From: a virus
Length of the DNA stretch: 30,173 nucleotides
Virus record (IMG/VR): IMGVR_UViG_3300017756_000065
Location: 1 to 30,173 of that record
Strand: one strand, 5' to 3'
Under the pieces are notes generated by a model. It was not told where the DNA came from, did not search any database, and saw nothing but the letters and a program-made list of their open reading frames with translations. The translations under genes were made by a program, and so were the position numbers. Numbering within the stretch: the first letter of the stretch is position 1; each line of letters starts with the position of its first letter. Shown here piece by piece: positions 7,697-23,083 of this stretch.

Positions 7697-7924
7697 ATGG
7701 GTGAAAAAACTTTAATATTAGAATTTAAGATTCAGCTGCTTAGGCTGGGACTTACTAAGCCAGAGATAGCTAAGAAGCTTGGTATATCTCTACCGACCCT
7801 TAACTCTAGGATAAAAGATCCTCAGAGGTTCACAATTTATAACTTAAAACAATTAAAAAAAGTAGGTTTTAATCATGACTATTACGGAAAACTATTATCT
7901 GGAGCTGCGATCAGTTCCAGTTAG
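7697..7924 (+). CDS. Small helix-turn-helix protein
   Basis: A 75-residue protein, the first gene after the early promoter. The segment LTKPEIAKKLGISLPTLNSRI reads as a helix-turn-helix (about residues 18-38): a helix, a glycine turn, and a recognition helix. This is the size of small phage regulators that bind their own promoter region. I chose the ATG at 7697; a TTG two codons upstream (7691) is also in frame. The end overlaps the next gene by 50 bp in another frame. The target is unknown. It could be an autoregulator of the early operon, but nothing here shows a repressor of lysogeny. Confidence 0.6.
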   Translation: MGEKTLILEFKIQLLRLGLTKPEIAKKLGISLPTLNSRIKDPQRFTIYNLKQLKKVGFNHDYYGKLLSGAAISSS

Positions 7925-8405
7925 AGAACACTTTGAAAAAAAAGGAGGACTTGACTATCTCAGCTGGGCTAAAGCGTGGGATATGCTCAAAAGAATCTAT
8001 CCAGATGCAGAGTATTGGATAGTAAGAGATGAACACAATAACAACAGAAATTATTTCACAAATGGAAATAGTGGCTGGGTCACTGTTGTGGTGTCCATAA
8101 AAAGTATAGATCATTCTATTGATCTAGCCATTATGGATCACAGAAATAAAGCAGTTCCAAAAGATGACATCACTTCTGTGGATGTAATGAACTCAATTCA
8201 AAGGGCGCTCACGAAAGCTGTGGCGATGCATGGACTTGGGATCATTGCTTGGACTGGCGAAAAGGATTATATATCAGAGCTTAAATTTAATGAAATCTTA
8301 GACTCTAAAAATTATAATCTAGCAGTTGAAACTTATAATAATTATCAGCTAAACGCTGAACAACTTGAACTAATTAAAAAACAATTTAAAAAAGAGAAAA
8401 AATGA
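7875..8405 (+). CDS. Single-strand annealing protein, Sak3/DUF1071 type
   Basis: A 176-residue protein that matches the DUF1071 (Sak3-like) phage recombinases. It has the N-terminal LDYLSWAKAWDMLKRIYPDA motif (about residues 26-45), a central strand VTVVVSI, LAIMDHRNKAV (residues 84-94), and the MNSIQRALTKAVAMHGLGI segment (105-123). These proteins coat single-stranded DNA and anneal complementary strands, and in phages they pair with an exonuclease. Such a nuclease is encoded at 8698. Its start overlaps the HTH gene by 50 bp, and its last bases overlap the next start by 4 bp (ATGA), so the genes are likely translated together. Confidence 0.82.
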   Translation: MTITENYYLELRSVPVREHFEKKGGLDYLSWAKAWDMLKRIYPDAEYWIVRDEHNNNRNYFTNGNSGWVTVVVSIKSIDHSIDLAIMDHRNKAVPKDDITSVDVMNSIQRALTKAVAMHGLGIIAWTGEKDYISELKFNEILDSKNYNLAVETYNNYQLNAEQLELIKKQFKKEKK

Positions 8406-8697: not shown

Positions 8698-9474
8698 ATG
8701 ATTATAAAAAAAGATACAAATCAAGAATATCATTCTAGCAAATCTATCAGCGCTAGTGGGCTCAAAGAGATTTGGCTTACTAGCGTTTATGATTTTAATA
8801 GAAGGGTTTACGAAGACAAACCAGCCTATAGGTTGGGCACTATGATCCATGAATTATTTTTAGAGCCAGATGAGTTTAAAGAAAATTATTATCTACCTAC
8901 GGAAAAAATAGATAGAAGGACAAAAGCTGGAAAAGAAAAATTTGCAGAGCTTTCTAAGATGCGAAAAATAGTAGCTACTTATGATGAGGTTCAAACAATC
9001 AACGGATTGAAAAAGTCTTTAAATTCTAATAATGAAATGTCGAAATTAGCTAGAAAGTATCTAGAAGGCGATTCAGAGGTCTCTCACTATTTTAGTTATA
9101 AAGGTATTGAGGCAAGAGTAAGACCAGATCTCAAGGGAAATGGTTTTATTTCAGATATAAAAACAGCTCAATTTATGAATGGGCGCTTTGGTAAAAAAGA
9201 ATTTAAGAGCCAGATCTATTCTTTTGGCTATCATCTTCAAGCTACATTTTACGCCGATATGCTAGACATTCATCCTAGGGAATTTAAATTCATTTGGATG
9301 GAAAAAAAATATCCCTTTAGAATTGTAGTTACTACTTTAAGCGATAAACAGATCGAAGAGGGAAGGGGGGGGTACCTTAGCGCTTTAGAAGATTGGAAGG
9401 CTTATATTGATCTAGGTATAGAAAAACGCTTTGATAGTGATGATTTATTATATGATGGAAGTTTAGAGACATGA
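8698..9474 (+). CDS. RecE-like exonuclease (PD-(D/E)XK fold)
   Basis: A 258-residue nuclease of the exodeoxyribonuclease VIII/DUF3799 type. Visible motifs: GTMIHELFLEPDEF (residues 47-60) with the conserved His, EARVRPDL with Asp144, SDIKT with Asp153 and Lys155 (the D...D-x-K active site), and YHLQATFYADML (178-189), the QxxxY-type helix of this group. It should resect double-stranded DNA so that the annealing protein at 7875 can load, a Red/RecET-like pair for recombination-dependent replication. A run of eight G at 9365-9372 near the 3' end encodes Arg-Gly-Gly. It overlaps the next gene by 4 bp. Confidence 0.82.
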   Translation: MIIKKDTNQEYHSSKSISASGLKEIWLTSVYDFNRRVYEDKPAYRLGTMIHELFLEPDEFKENYYLPTEKIDRRTKAGKEKFAELSKMRKIVATYDEVQTINGLKKSLNSNNEMSKLARKYLEGDSEVSHYFSYKGIEARVRPDLKGNGFISDIKTAQFMNGRFGKKEFKSQIYSFGYHLQATFYADMLDIHPREFKFIWMEKKYPFRIVVTTLSDKQIEEGRGGYLSALEDWKAYIDLGIEKRFDSDDLLYDGSLET

Positions 9475-10176: not shown

Positions 10177-10420
10177 AAAAAGAATGATTTACTGGGATCA
10201 AAAAAGGCAAAGAATAAAATTCTCAGCCTCTAATGATTTTCATAATATTAAAAATTATTCTTTTATAGGTTTTGCCAATGATCCAGAGTTTGAGGTTTTA
10301 CTTGATGTTCTCTTTGAGCGCTTTCGTGATGACCATATTCAAACATCCCAAGTGTTAGAAGTTTATCAAAACTTTATGATGTTTCTTGATAATTTAAAAA
10401 AAATCACTAGCCGTTTATAA
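10169..10420 (+). CDS. Small protein of unknown function
   Basis: An 83-residue protein overlapping the VRR-NUC gene by 8 bp and ending just before the AT-only repeat region. It begins with a basic stretch (MYKKRMIYWDQKRQRIKF) and continues with a helix-rich acidic part. There is no membrane segment, signal peptide or metal motif. Its place inside the replication operon suggests a role in DNA metabolism, but the sequence itself gives no function. Confidence 0.6.
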   Translation: MYKKRMIYWDQKRQRIKFSASNDFHNIKNYSFIGFANDPEFEVLLDVLFERFRDDHIQTSQVLEVYQNFMMFLDNLKKITSRL

Positions 10421-10532
10421 TCTATAGATCTATATATTATCTATAGATCTATATATAATATATATATATATATTTAATATTAAATAAAATAAAAAAATAT
10501 ATAGATAATAAATATATCTATAGATAATCTAC
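10421..10532. other. AT-only repeat region, candidate replication origin or control site
   Basis: A 112-bp gap that is almost pure A and T. TCTATAGATCTATATAT occurs at 10421 and again at 10440 (period 19), and a third partial copy, TCTATAGATAATCT, starts at 10517. Each full copy contains the perfect palindrome TATAGATCTATA. Between them lies an alternating TA stretch that would melt easily. It sits between the DnaA-like and primase-helicase genes. I see no classical DnaA box TTATCCACA here. Confidence 0.5.
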
Positions 10533-17097: not shown

Positions 17098-18750
17098 GTG
17101 GACATCAAAAAATTTAAAGAGAGCTGGAGAGGAGCCTTTTCCGATAGGCTAAATCTCAATGAAAGGAAACAATCCAAAAAGTGGAAAAGATATCTATTAG
17201 CAGAATATACCAAAGGAGTAGAATCTTTTTTAAGCACGAATTCAGAGAGGGAATTTTCTAATTTATTCAAGGTACGAGACATTCAGACTCTGTATGTAAA
17301 TCTCTATGAGGAGGTTGGAGTTGACTTTGCTAAATGGTACGCTAGAAGCTTTGATAAGTTTATAGAAAAGAATTCTGGAAACGAATCTACATGGCGAACA
17401 ACATTTTCAAGGATAGGTCAAACAGAAGCTGGTGATAAGATAATTCTGGTTCAAGGGACAGCTCATAAGGAGCTTAAAAGAAATATAGGAAATCTATTTA
17501 AGGATCCAGAGTTTCAGTCATTAGGAAGAGACCAGCAAGGTAGAATCTTACAAAGTAGATTCAAAGGAATTACAGAGTATCAAGCCACTAGGATAGTAAG
17601 AACTGAAGCAACCTCAGCGGCTAATGAGGGAATAATGCAATCAGCCTCAGATATATTTCCAAAGTCAAGTTTGATAAAAGAATGGATCAGCTCCCAAGAT
17701 GGAAGGACTAGAGCTTTCAATAGAGGTGATAAATCCGATCACCTAAACATGAATGGCAGAAAGGTAGGTTTTGATGAGACTTTTGCAGTTCCAGAGTTTG
17801 GTCGAGTGGTGCAAATGAAAAAGCCAGCTGACTTTAGGTCTGGAGCCTCGGCTCATAATATTGTGAACTGTAGATGTTCAATGGCTGTATATCCAAAAGA
17901 AGGAGCAGAGGTCAATGAGGGTGTTTCTTTGACTGGGATAGGGGGGGGAGTAAGCGCCAGAACTAGCCAGCTCATAGGAGATGAAATAGTAACAGCTAGG
18001 AAGCCAACCGCTGACATTACTAGCAGAGAGAGGGCTAGAGAGTTTACTTCAAAGCCAAATCAAGCTAAAGATATAAAAGAAGCTAAAGATATATTTACAA
18101 ACAAATTAAAAGAGGTAAATATAAGCGTGAGTAAAATATCTGTAGGAAGAGGAATCTCTATAGATAATATGAATAAATTTATAAATCAATTTACTGAGCT
18201 ATCATCTAAATATAAAATTTCCCATTTAAGAGCTGGATCTAAAGTTAATTTGAGATTTACTGGTGGCTCTGGTTATGGTGGGCAAGTCCGATATTTTGAC
18301 AGTGGTAAATTAGCGGAAATTGATTTAGGTAAGGGATATAATGCTAGATCAGATTTTCACAAAGAATATATAAAAAAGAGCCGAAGCCCAGACAAACAAA
18401 ATACTATATTTTCTGATAGAGGTAAAAGTATAGTGGATGAGGAAAATTTAGAGGTAGCAACATTAACTCATGAGTTCGCGCATTATATAGATAATATAGA
18501 TACCTCCACATTAACTAAAACATTTTGGAAAGAAATTGATGACATTAGATCAGAATATAGCTTAGAGCGTTTAAAATATCTAAAAGAGAGGAATATAAAA
18601 AAATTTAATGAAATTAATTTAGGGAATTACGCTGGAACATCAAGGGATGAATTTTTTGCTGAAGGTTTTACAGAATATGAGCTAAGATCAAATCCATCAA
18701 AATACGCAATAAAAATAGGAGAATTAACAAAAAAATATTTTGGAAAATGA
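17098..18750 (+). CDS. MuF head morphogenesis protein fused to a metallopeptidase-like domain
   Basis: A 550-residue protein starting at GTG directly after the portal stop. Residues about 140-262 are a MuF/SPP1 gp7-type domain: ITEYQATRIVRTEATSAANEG (158-178, abridged reading), EWISSQDGRTRAFNRGDKSDH and the closing NCRCSMAVYP with Cys258 and Cys260. MuF proteins sit in the virion head and enter with the DNA. After a glycine linker the C-terminal part (about 330-550) holds TLTHEFAHYID with the zinc motif H458-E-F-A-H462 and, further on, SRDEFFAEGF with a likely third ligand at E518 or E522. This is the layout of MuF polymorphic toxins. Protease activity is inferred. Eight G at 17941-17948 separate the two halves. 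Confidence 0.85.
   Translation: MDIKKFKESWRGAFSDRLNLNERKQSKKWKRYLLAEYTKGVESFLSTNSEREFSNLFKVRDIQTLYVNLYEEVGVDFAKWYARSFDKFIEKNSGNESTWRTTFSRIGQTEAGDKIILVQGTAHKELKRNIGNLFKDPEFQSLGRDQQGRILQSRFKGITEYQATRIVRTEATSAANEGIMQSASDIFPKSSLIKEWISSQDGRTRAFNRGDKSDHLNMNGRKVGFDETFAVPEFGRVVQMKKPADFRSGASAHNIVNCRCSMAVYPKEGAEVNEGVSLTGIGGGVSARTSQLIGDEIVTARKPTADITSRERAREFTSKPNQAKDIKEAKDIFTNKLKEVNISVSKISVGRGISIDNMNKFINQFTELSSKYKISHLRAGSKVNLRFTGGSGYGGQVRYFDSGKLAEIDLGKGYNARSDFHKEYIKKSRSPDKQNTIFSDRGKSIVDEENLEVATLTHEFAHYIDNIDTSTLTKTFWKEIDDIRSEYSLERLKYLKERNIKKFNEINLGNYAGTSRDEFFAEGFTEYELRSNPSKYAIKIGELTKKYFGK
17941..17948 (+). repeat. Eight-G tract at the MuF/metallopeptidase boundary
   Basis: The codons read ATA GGG GGG GGA GTA. 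Loss of one G gives GAG TAA at once; gain of one G gives AGT AAG CGC CAG AAC TAG. Both leave the MuF domain intact and remove the peptidase domain. Confidence 0.9.
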
Positions 18751-20861: not shown

Positions 20862-20881
20862 CCTAAAGAGGCGGTAATTAA

Positions 20882-20909
20882 AGGGGATCTTTGCGATCCT
20901 CTTTTTTTT
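20882..20909 (+). terminator. Rho-independent terminator after the capsid gene
   Basis: An 8-bp stem (AGGGGATC with GATCCTCT, one G-T wobble) with loop TTTGC is followed by a T-run to 20909. It closes the capsid transcription unit. Confidence 0.88.
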
Positions 20910-20949: not shown

Positions 20950-20980
20950 TTTGGTGGAATAAAAAAAGTTTATATCTTTA
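20950..20980 (+). promoter_or_regulatory. Host-type promoter of the small-gene cluster
   Basis: TTTG (20950-20953), a 19-bp spacer and TATCTTTA (20973-20980) match the Bacteroidota promoter except for the last base of the -7 box. The spacing equals that of the early promoter at 7650. It should make the cluster behind it independent of the late genes. Confidence 0.72.
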
Positions 20981-21011
20981 CAGAGTAAAACAAAACAAAA
21001 TACTAGAAATT

Positions 21012-21362
21012 ATGAAAGCATTAGAAATTATTAAGAAACTAAAAGAAAGAAAAAGCTCACTAGAGTTCCAAACCAGACTACATTCTGGCCTTATCTCTCA
21101 TAACTACATTGTAGAGGTAGGTGCTAGCACTGTTAGACTAGTAGACGGTAAAGCAAAGTTGATGCCTATAGAGGGTACTGAATTACCATCTCAGTGGACT
21201 GCTGGAGGAGTAAAAGAAATCAAAGAGAAATGTAGCTGGAATAATATGCTAGGTAAGCCAATGCAGATTAAGGCTATAAACTATAAGGACTGGTACGCTA
21301 AGGAGCTTGATAGTATCAACGAAACTTTAGAAATGTTTGAACCTTTAGTGGTAAAAGTTTAA
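21012..21362 (+). CDS. Unknown protein, first gene of the small-gene cluster
   Basis: A 116-residue protein about 31 nt after the cluster promoter. It starts with a basic helix (MKALEIIKKLKERKSS) and has a beta-rich middle (NYIVEVGASTVRLVDGKAKL) with a Trp-containing ELPSQWTAGG segment. A helical end (LDSINETLEMFEPL) follows. No motif of a known family, signal peptide or membrane segment is visible. Being first behind a host-like promoter suggests early expression and possibly host takeover or counter-defence, but that is inference from context only. Confidence 0.65.
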   Translation: MKALEIIKKLKERKSSLEFQTRLHSGLISHNYIVEVGASTVRLVDGKAKLMPIEGTELPSQWTAGGVKEIKEKCSWNNMLGKPMQIKAINYKDWYAKELDSINETLEMFEPLVVKV

Positions 21363-21373
21363 AAAACAATAAC

Positions 21374-21405
21374 TAACCAAGGGAGCCGAAAGGCTCCCAT
21401 TAAAA
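21374..21405 (+). repeat. Hairpin repeat, copy 1
   Basis: A 32-nt sequence identical to 21644-21675. Its core GGGAGCC-GAAA-GGCTCCC (21381-21398) is a perfect 7-bp stem with a GAAA tetraloop. It lies between two genes and ends its stem 16 nt before the ATG at 21415. No T-run follows, so it is not a terminator. Confidence 0.93.
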
Positions 21406-21414
21406 ATTAATATT

Positions 21415-21639
21415 ATGGAAAATTACACAACAGAACAAAAAATGAATGCTATAGAGCAATTAATCAGTCAAATGGAGAGAACCCCTACTGAAAAAAGTAA
21501 AGAGGCTATGACTAAAGGATTAACCATTTTCTTTCAAAATCACTATGGTGAAGGAATTTACGGAACTGGAGAATTTGGAGATCTATACCATAAATTCAAA
21601 GATATAGAGAGTAGTACAGAGCCTCAAATAATTGACTAA
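21415..21639 (+). CDS. Unknown small protein
   Basis: A 74-residue acidic protein whose start lies 16 nt after the first hairpin repeat. The N-terminal half is helical (TTEQKMNAIEQLISQME) and the C-terminal half is aromatic and Gly-rich (NHYGEGIYGTGEFGDLYHKF). I recognise no family. It belongs to the cluster read from the promoter at 20950. Confidence 0.6.
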   Translation: MENYTTEQKMNAIEQLISQMERTPTEKSKEAMTKGLTIFFQNHYGEGIYGTGEFGDLYHKFKDIESSTEPQIID

Positions 21640-21643
21640 TCAA

Positions 21644-21675
21644 TAACCAAGGGAGCCGAAAGGCTCCCATTAAAA
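21644..21675 (+). repeat. Hairpin repeat, copy 2
   Basis: The second exact 32-nt copy, with the same GGGAGCC-GAAA-GGCTCCC stem-loop at 21651-21668. It again sits in the gap after a stop codon, with its stem 16 nt before the next ATG (21685). Same orientation and same distance as copy 1 point to a role in the messenger RNA. Confidence 0.93.
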
Positions 21676-21684
21676 CAAGCTATT

Positions 21685-21852
21685 ATGAGAAACAGTCAAA
21701 GAGTAAGATCACAAAGATGGTCAGTAAGATTTAAAATAGGAGCAGATCCTCTGGTAATTGAGGCAGACTTCTGGAGCGTTAAAGATGCTAGGAATTGGAT
21801 TGAGAAGTCCATAGGTCAGCGCCTTGTAGGTATCAGTAAAATCGTTGATTAA
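21685..21852 (+). CDS. Unknown small protein
   Basis: A 55-residue protein with its start 16 nt after the second hairpin repeat. It opens with a basic, Arg-rich stretch (MRNSQRVRSQRWSVRFKIG), followed by ADPLVIEADFWSVKDARNWIE and a short C-terminal strand. The pattern of strand, helix and strand could be a tiny nucleic-acid or protein-binding fold, but no family is recognised. Confidence 0.6.
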   Translation: MRNSQRVRSQRWSVRFKIGADPLVIEADFWSVKDARNWIEKSIGQRLVGISKIVD

Positions 21853-21877
21853 TTAACTAACTTAAAATCAAACTATT

Positions 21878-22147
21878 ATGGAGTTTAAAAAAATCGCTTA
21901 CTTTGTGGTGAGCAAAAATTCTAAGGAGTTTATGACAGTAGATCATAAATGGACTATTAATTTTAGAAAGGCTAAAGCCTTTGAAAACAGAAAAGATGCT
22001 GTAACCTTTATCAGCAATCTTAGCTTAAGAAAAGCCAGCGCAACTGAAGTGATGGACTGGTGGATCATAGAAGATAACCAGCTTACTAAATCTGGTCAAG
22101 CATTAATTCAAATTAAAAATAATGGAAAATCAATTAAAACAATATAA
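21878..22147 (+). CDS. Unknown small protein
   Basis: An 89-residue protein, the fourth in the cluster. KAKAFENRKDAVTFISNL (about residues 31-48) and ATEVMDWWIIEDNQ read like alternating strands and helices. It shares an aromatic, Trp-containing style with the gene before it. The gap before it (21853-21877) lacks the hairpin repeat. The end overlaps the following membrane-protein gene by 26 bp. Function unknown. Confidence 0.6.
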   Translation: MEFKKIAYFVVSKNSKEFMTVDHKWTINFRKAKAFENRKDAVTFISNLSLRKASATEVMDWWIIEDNQLTKSGQALIQIKNNGKSIKTI

Positions 22148-22283
22148 AAGAATTACATCAAGGCGAAATGCCATTAACATAAAAAGACAAATTGTATGGA
22201 CAGCGGTATTATTTCTAATCGCCATACTTGCTGCTAATTTTATTACTTACTCATTAATTCACTTTATATATGACAAAGCCTAA
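22122..22283 (+). CDS. Small single-pass membrane protein
   Basis: A 53-residue protein. A basic N-terminus (ending in AINIKRQ) is followed by a hydrophobic helix, IVWTAVLFLIAILAANFI (about residues 24-41), and a short tail. It overlaps both neighbours (26 bp with the previous gene, 14 bp with the next), which argues for joint translation. By the positive-inside rule the N-terminus would be cytoplasmic. Role unknown; small phage membrane proteins often act in superinfection exclusion. Confidence 0.55.
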   Translation: MENQLKQYKRITSRRNAINIKRQIVWTAVLFLIAILAANFITYSLIHFIYDKA

Positions 22284-22416
22284 CGGAAAAAAAATGAAAT
22301 GGATCCTTATTTTATTATTTCTTGTTTGGGGCGCAAGCTTTCAAATAAGGTTTGGATCTTACTTTGACTCTTTTTTAATGATTACTATCGCTTTAATGAT
22401 TTATGCTAATGAATAG
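22270..22416 (+). CDS. Small two-helix membrane protein
   Basis: A 48-residue protein overlapping both neighbours. After a basic start it has WILILLFLVWGASF (residues 11-24) and a second hydrophobic stretch, SFLMITIALMIYA (34-46), joined by a short polar turn with Arg and Asp. This fits a hairpin in the inner membrane. It has no known family and may act with the preceding membrane protein. Confidence 0.52.
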   Translation: MTKPNGKKMKWILILLFLVWGASFQIRFGSYFDSFLMITIALMIYANE

Positions 22417-22522
22417 AAAAGACACTTTTAAAGAGTCAATGGAAAAGATAGATAAATCCATTGAGAGAATAAAAAAACTAAATAAACTTATTAAGAAATT
22501 AAGGAACCCTAAATCGAAATAA
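22409..22522 (+). CDS. Very small basic helical protein
   Basis: A 37-residue protein overlapping the preceding gene by 8 bp and the last of the cluster before the terminator. It is one charged amphipathic helix (KESMEKIDKSIERIKKLNK) with a basic end, a possible coiled coil or RNA-binding peptide. Coding status rests on overlap with neighbours and the lack of other explanation. Confidence 0.42.
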   Translation: MNRKDTFKESMEKIDKSIERIKKLNKLIKKLRNPKSK

Positions 22523-22547
22523 TCCTTTTTTCATTTCTGTTTTGTTC

Positions 22548-22575
22548 AGCCTCCTAGAGATAGGGGGCTTTTTTT
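22548..22575 (+). terminator. Rho-independent terminator of the small-gene cluster
   Basis: AGCCTCCT (22548-22555) pairs with AGGGGGCT (22562-22569) with one T-G wobble, loop AGAGAT, followed by T to 22575. It closes the unit that starts at the promoter 20950. Confidence 0.85.
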
Positions 22576-22605: not shown

Positions 22606-22977
22606 TTGGGAATAAATCATCAAGGATGTTTTGCAGAGTATTTGTTTTGTGCTGAATGTACAAAAAGAAACTACACTGTTTCAATGCCGATTCTAGACTC
22701 TAGTGTCTATGATTGTATTGTCGATTCTAAAGGCAACCTATATAAAATTCAGATTAAATCATCTGACAAAACTCCCAGAGGTAATGAAAATTCAGTAAAT
22801 ATTCCACTAGATAACTCAAGAACTAAATACACTAAGGACAAAATAGATTATTTTGCTGTTTACAGCGGTTTTTATGGCGGTTTTTTTGTTTTCCCTAACT
22901 TGGGTAACATGAAATCATTTAGAGCCTCTAAAAAGGGCAAAAACAAGGTTTTTTACAATAACTTTAATTTCAATTAA
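22606..22977 (+). CDS. PD-(D/E)XK-like endonuclease
   Basis: A 123-residue single-gene unit with its own -7 box. GCFAEYLFCAECTKRNY (residues 8-24, with Glu11), SSVYDCIVD with Asp36, and YKIQIKSS with Gln49 and Lys51 form the E...D...Q-x-K site of small PD-(D/E)XK proteins that resemble Holliday-junction resolvases and intron endonucleases. YTKDKIDYFAVYSG and FFVFPNLGN complete the fold. TTG 22606 is the only plausible start. It stands between two terminators and away from the replication genes, as a moron or homing-type gene would. Substrate unknown. Confidence 0.68.
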   Translation: MGINHQGCFAEYLFCAECTKRNYTVSMPILDSSVYDCIVDSKGNLYKIQIKSSDKTPRGNENSVNIPLDNSRTKYTKDKIDYFAVYSGFYGGFFVFPNLGNMKSFRASKKGKNKVFYNNFNFN

Positions 22978-22997: not shown

Positions 22998-23076
22998 TAC
23001 TTTTTTTTCATAATAGTTAATAGTAATTGTTTGGTTTGAAATTGCGCTGCTCTTCTCAGAGTGGCGCTTTTTTTTT
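22998..23076 (+). ncRNA. Possible small non-coding RNA
   Basis: A -7 box (22984-22991) is followed 53 nt later by a strong intrinsic terminator, with no credible coding frame between. A transcript of about 80 nt would have an AU-rich, mostly unpaired 5' part and end in the 10-bp terminator hairpin. This layout is that of a small regulatory RNA. The 5' end is a guess from the box position. It could instead be only the 3' trailer of the upstream gene. Confidence 0.35.
23044..23076 (+). terminator. Rho-independent terminator before the connector operon
   Basis: GCGCTGCTCT (23044-23053) pairs with AGAGTGGCGC (23058-23067) with two G-T wobbles, loop TCTC, followed by nine T (23068-23076). Confidence 0.88.
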
Positions 23077-23083
23077 AAATTTG
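23076..23083 (+). promoter_or_regulatory. -7 promoter box of the connector operon
   Basis: TAAATTTG begins at the end of the terminator T-run, continues with TATAAAATTAATAATC and reaches the ATG at 23100. The terminator hairpin occupies the -33 region, as at 2424. Confidence 0.58.

Follow-up and report, generated by a model that had tools for sequence, protein, structure and literature searches.

T4-type phages carry promoter early stem-loops (PeSLs), or mobile regulatory cassettes, whose stem-loops are thought to mediate homology-based modular shuffling (Arbiol 2010; Comeau 2014, both as cited in PMC4503421). In the account given there, PeSLs are conserved stem-loops between the small accessory genes of a hypervariable region, and each PeSL motif contains a promoter. 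Morons and the accessory hotspots of lambdoid and other tailed phages are variable small genes inside the structural region; a moron has its own promoter and terminator, is expressed independently of the late genes around it and is extra DNA absent from relatives. Integron cassettes, each composed of an ORF and an attC hairpin, are promoterless and stand behind a common promoter. Here, we compare with these systems a slot for small genes that lies next to the capsid gene of a virus in IMG/VR.

The DNA analyzed, IMGVR_UViG_3300017756_000065 (the window), has 30,173 bases and a 123-bp end repeat, so it is probably a complete genome. Its host is probably a marine member of the Bacteroidota, judging from the promoter type, the A-rich start regions and the A+T richness. 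Between the major capsid gene and the connector operon, the window contains seven small ORFs (o1–o7) and, beyond their terminator, a nuclease gene (Table 1). An initial annotation had described the ORFs as a moron-like unit inserted in the head module, with its own promoter, two bounding terminators and two small membrane proteins. All seven start positions are correct, the last belonging to the 37-residue frame; the promoter is present exactly as described, both terminators were found, and the sequences of o5 and o6 resemble those of small membrane proteins. That annotation mentioned neither the two hairpins between the first three ORFs nor the nuclease gene, which lies outside its interval yet between capsid and connector. 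Elsewhere in the window, a Mu F-like head protein (17098–18750) shows a weak, below-cut-off match to ATLF-type metalloproteases in its C-terminal part, and a non-coding gap adjoining the replication genes (10416–10532) holds A+T-rich tandem and inverted repeats of the TATAGATCTATA type, a possible origin of replication.

Table 1. Features of the slot, its borders and the candidate recombination genes of the window
Feature	Position	Strand	Basis
Sak-type single-strand annealing protein, candidate recombinase	7875..8405	+	PF06378, E 6.9e-26
PDDEXK-like DUF3799 protein, candidate partner exonuclease of Sak	8698..9474	+	PF12684, E 2.7e-16
Terminator 3′ of major capsid gene, left edge of unit	20880..20904	+	Stem-loop; stem-loop and T run at same place in relatives
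Promoter TTTG-N19-TATCTTTA, Bacteroidota-type, fixed leader of cassette slot	20950..20980	+	Sequence; relatives; PMC6847099 consensus
o1, cassette 1, family F17, 116 aa	21012..21362	+	Relatives; predicted structure
Hairpin 1, GGGAGCC-GAAA-GGCTCCC, between o1 and o2	21381..21398	+	Sequence; RNA folding
o2, cassette 2, family F18, 74 aa	21415..21639	+	Relatives
Hairpin 2, identical to hairpin 1, between o2 and o3	21651..21668	+	Sequence; RNA folding
o3, family F13, 55 aa	21685..21852	+	Carried by L006 and L009, not by L003 and L005
o4, family F10, 89 aa, core gene of sub-lineage	21878..22147	+	Relatives
o5, family F11, 53 aa, apparent small membrane protein, overlaps o4	22122..22283	+	Sequence; relatives
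o6, family F5, 48 aa, apparent small membrane protein, kept in most of family	22270..22416	+	Relatives
o7, family F3, 37 aa, small charged protein, conserved	22409..22522	+	Relatives
Unit terminator	22548..22569	+	Sequence
I-Ssp6803I-like PD-(D/E)XK nuclease, TTG start	22606..22977	+	Pfam; structure model; syntenic in nearly all relatives
Terminator 3′ of nuclease gene	23044..23067	+	Sequence
TAAATTTG box, connector operon, right border	23076..23083	+	Box scan

Gene order, conserved tail and promoter of the site

Related loci were collected by a capsid protein search of IMG/VR (55 loci) and a nuclease profile search (276 loci, the best 80 of which were fetched). A near DNA search of the phage collection gave no match. 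The scan of a genome collection found one distant capsid relative only, in a contig labelled as an archaeal MAG; contig L383, labelled as a Woesearchaeota MAG, encodes the nuclease and a capsid protein 49% identical, and is probably a mis-binned phage.

Where the site is covered, the gene order is capsid, small ORFs, nuclease, small gene and connector, and the block of small ORFs is present in every relative. This order holds throughout the family, so the block does not interrupt it as had been proposed. On this comparison, conservation across the viral family shows that the site is ancestral, as are the genes of the 3′ half (those for small membrane proteins and the nuclease). Homologues of o4–o7 and of the adjoining nuclease are found at this position throughout the family or the sub-lineage; the o6 family occurs almost throughout the relatives, and o7 or its counterparts likewise stand at the site. 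Profile matches of o7 to Phage_int_SAM_6 (E 0.02) and of o6 to GP5 (E 0.13) are below the cut-off and were rejected.

The content of o1–o3 varies. In G005, whose capsid protein is 96% identical, only o1–o3 are missing among the window genes compared, a doubtful frame at 200–676 aside, and G006 lacks o2 plus a few other small genes. The idea of an inserted moron-like block survives in that the unit is self-contained and its accessory content varies; insertion of the block as a whole does not, since only o1–o3 behave as exchangeable genes.

The leader, a terminator followed by the promoter, recurs in most relatives. In the window, the promoter consists of TTTG (20950–20953), 19 nt and TATCTTTA (20973–20980), which fits the TTTG/TANNTTTG consensus of Bacteroidota (PMC6847099) at seven of eight positions. 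Early expression had been predicted from this host-like type, and the argument is weakened because structural operons of the same genome also carry a TAnnTTTG box (1225, 14802, 23076 and 27365). However, in a box scan of the window, TTTG lies exactly 19 nt upstream of the box only at the unit (20973) and the early operon (7673), and an early-type promoter for the unit is plausible. The four structural operons have in common a TAnnTTTGTAWAAA box without TTTG 19 nt upstream, which is perhaps a second, later promoter class.

Single-gene cassettes and intercassette hairpins

Judged by the relatives, genes are truly exchanged in the 5′ half of the block, a slot that comprises o1, o2 and, probably, o3. 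In the relatives, the slot contains between one and three cassettes of a single ORF each, and most cassettes precede a G+C-rich hairpin with a 7-bp stem and a GNRA-type loop. Each cassette is one ORF with the same start context (..ATTATG) and, after the stop, the same spacer (..AACC or AACCAA); the hairpin and the A-rich start region of the next gene usually follow. Cassettes without a hairpin are o3 and family F25 in L018, L022 and L023.

The cassette families occur in different combinations: F20-F13 in L006, F20-F17-F13 in L009 and F17-F18-F13 in the window. F16 stands alone in L042 and L045, behind F35 in L043 and behind F34 in L056. L045 and L046 carry unrelated cassettes between DNA that is 99.9% identical in the capsid gene and 99.6% identical downstream; the alignment of L042 with L046 is near-identical up to ATTATG, then divergent, and near-identical again from AAAAAAACC and the hairpin. 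Distant viruses also have cassettes in common. The F19 protein is 100% identical between L003 and L030/L032, for which the identities are 71% in the capsid, 53% in the nuclease and 57–59% in the connector. The F19 DNA match ends close to the ORF, and the hairpins of these viruses are of their own lineage's type despite the common cassette.

Family F18 (o2) is found elsewhere only in L012 and the near-identical contig L002. Family F17 (o1) also occurs outside the slot: it lies directly 3′ of the terminase gene in L376, L377, L378 and L380, where this capsid is undetected, and 3′ of a tail gene in L374, another site of a related genome. Outside the slot, o1 is mostly followed by a hairpin, namely where the locus extends far enough. 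AlphaFold modelling of o1 gives a pLDDT of 80 for the best model and poorer values for the others. For o1, a sequence search of phage records, a profile search against the PDB and a Foldseek search against the PDB gave nothing significant. The model resembles uncharacterized proteins from unrelated phages that infect Ralstonia, Caulobacter, Pseudomonas and Achromobacter (Foldseek probability ~1.0, TM ~0.6–0.7), which suggests a widespread and still unnamed family of small phage proteins with the o1 fold. Pfam, PHROGs and PADLOC gave no convincing match for o1–o7. Rapid replacement and the promoter type favour host takeover or counter-defence as the most likely, though putative, role of the cassette products.

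Hairpins 1 and 2 are the only perfect 7-bp, four-base-loop, G+C-rich hairpins in the window; shuffled windows average 0.03. They lie inside a repeated 55-nt spacer, the copies of which are 84% alike, and RNA folding gives clean hairpins of −16 and −18.2 kcal/mol (z −3.9 and −5.0). Among 34 intercassette hairpins from 29 genomes, the stem covaries at three of seven positions with pairing kept (A-T/G-C, C-G/T-A/G-C and C-G/G-C), and the loop is GCAA or GAAA in 26 and an exact reverse complement of these in 8. The intercassette hairpins of the slot have no T run, and a TAnnTTTG-like box was not found in the two intercassette gaps; the promoter upstream of o1 is the only one of the unit. Loop inversions with little other change around them are seen between near-identical viruses (GCAA/TTGC, GAAA/TTTC and ATGA/TCAT), for example between L042:1588-1605 and L045:2890-2907 and between L036 and L031, and L337 holds both orientations. 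The hairpin sequence is not unique to this viral family; unrelated viral contigs often contain it in exact form, in many cases as a terminator. L069:5965-8849, in a 38.6-kb contig of 50% G+C, contains the same hairpin seven times between small ORFs, each with a C-TTTTT tail, and is a terminator array.

The genomes were grouped by the presence of intercassette hairpins, and genome pairs were scored for a differing first-ORF family. With capsids at least 97% identical, the first ORF differs in 31 of 37 pairs with hairpins and in 3 of 36 without, and with capsids 90–97% identical in 92 of 94 and 21 of 226, respectively; these pairs are not independent and the hairpin genomes are mostly one group, so that lineage confounds the counts and the relation of hairpins to turnover is an association, not proof. 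The 34 hairpin-bearing genomes contain 24 first-ORF families. At the level of sequence, comparison of the loci thus establishes the anatomy of the slot, the cassette boundaries, the fast turnover and the transfer between distant viruses.

Explanations of cassette exchange

We favour, with a probability of about 0.72, an early-promoter cassette slot that is remodelled by phage homologous recombination and in which the hairpin marks the cassette end. The site would be a permanent accessory slot, in which a fixed leader (capsid terminator and early-type Bacteroidota promoter) precedes one to three exchangeable single-ORF cassettes, and after these come a conserved tail (genes for small membrane proteins), a terminator and the nuclease gene. 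One early-type promoter would drive whichever ORF is first. For exchange, the leader, spacer repeats and conserved tail would serve as sites of homologous or short-homology recombination, probably with the help of the Sak annealing protein; Rad52-like phage recombinases tolerate divergence and recombine diverged DNA efficiently (PMC3945230). Close viruses would exchange cassettes through the conserved leader and tail, and distant viruses would seemingly need the short spacer homologies. Shine–Dalgarno sequences are missing from Flavobacterium mRNAs, in which weak structure and A residues ahead of the start tune initiation (PMC6847099). A hairpin immediately 5′ of a start region that is A-rich and unfolded may screen this region from the coding sequence before it; an ORF could then be expressed in whatever context it lands, and the cassettes would be interchangeable. 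Their products would be small early proteins acting on the host, in takeover or counter-defence, the best version of which changes with the host.

Ordinary moron or hotspot variation, produced by illegitimate recombination and selection with hairpins that are only mRNA stability or transcription elements, is a possible but rather unlikely alternative. Since the same sequences are widespread between the genes of unrelated phages, often as terminators, the hairpins may be ordinary mRNA elements that fall at cassette boundaries by chance. AACTAA-type short repeats flank o3 and are also present at the o3-less junction of L003, which is compatible with loss without a device. However, replacement is repeatedly precise at the ORF edges, turnover tracks hairpin presence, and distant viruses with a common cassette keep the hairpin sequence of their own lineage.

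Exchange driven by the nuclease is improbable. The enzyme would cut cassette-free or foreign alleles, or extruded cruciform hairpins, and repair would copy cassettes in, as in homing without an intron. The nuclease adjoins the slot and matches the PDDEXK_5 profile (PF11645, E 5.3e-13, 49.6 bits versus a cut-off of 26.1), with a sequence-level match to 2OST (E 5e-4). Its model (pLDDT 89) has I-Ssp6803I (PDB 2OST) as the top Foldseek match (TM 0.74, E 5.9e-9), and the next-best folds are SPARDA nucleases and Holliday junction resolvases Hjc. Residues E11, D36, Q49 and K51 are invariant; the E-D-QxK residues are those that we take to be catalytic in I-Ssp6803I. Thus, fold and motif are alike in the slot nuclease and the I-Ssp6803I-type homing endonucleases, and loop inversions between viruses that are nearly identical are compatible with processing of the palindromes as DNA. 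In contrast to I-Ssp6803I, the predicted nuclease is not in an intron, and its universal presence in the family is unlike that of a sporadic homing gene. Moreover, about 30 hairpin-less genomes with the same nuclease at the same place keep a constant first gene. We therefore reject the nuclease alone as the driver of turnover; it may help but is insufficient.

Still less probable is a dedicated exchange device, in which the palindromes of hairpin-bounded single-gene cassettes are processed at the DNA level, possibly by the I-Ssp6803I/Hjc-like nuclease and Sak; it would amount to integron-like capture without an integrase, common to unrelated phages. As in integrons, the cassettes are promoterless single ORFs behind a common promoter, with one ORF and one palindrome per cassette except for o3 and F25. 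No integron integrase (tyrosine recombinase) was found among the window proteins scanned with Pfam, which cover part of the ORFs; one encoded on a chromosome is possible. Unlike in integrons, the slot hairpins are 18 nt long and differ between lineages, and exchange is best explained by homologous recombination. It is just as improbable that the gene products of the unit work together as one system, such as a membrane-linked complex for exclusion or lysis timing, and are not independent cargo: o4–o7 overlap and conserved small membrane genes are followed by a small charged protein, but o1–o3 vary independently of o4–o7 and of each other, and lysis has a region of its own, with a holin-type protein, at 25.1–26.8 kb; the conserved tail by itself may be such a system.

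The slot among known systems

The slot shares with morons and accessory hotspots its position inside the structural region and its variable small genes, and the unit appears to have a promoter and a terminator of its own. The block is not extra DNA absent from relatives; this holds only for o1–o3 taken singly. In contrast to morons, both the locus and its 3′ half are ancestral features that all relatives have, and exchange affects only the 5′ ORFs, singly and between fixed borders.

With PeSLs, as summarized in PMC4503421, the slot shares conserved stem-loops between small accessory genes, a hypervariable region and the association with gene shuffling. Whereas each PeSL motif has a promoter in that summary, one promoter serves the whole array here, and the intercassette hairpins have neither promoter nor T run. 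The phage type and host phylum also differ from those of the T4-type systems, and there is a single slot next to the capsid gene. Measured against this account, the slot is PeSL-like in its working but not a member of the class, with PeSL shuffling as its closest precedent. What is new in relation to the same account is that shuffling of the PeSL kind occurs in another group of phages and that its single-gene borders are unusually sharp.

The comparison thus assigns the rapid gene turnover of a common marine phage group to a single slot whose borders are exact and in which unrelated genes take each other's place, although the viruses are otherwise ~99% identical around it. This makes precise single-gene swapping testable, together with the small proteins under the fastest host-driven selection. 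The slot also provides a ready catalogue of candidate host-takeover and counter-defence proteins.
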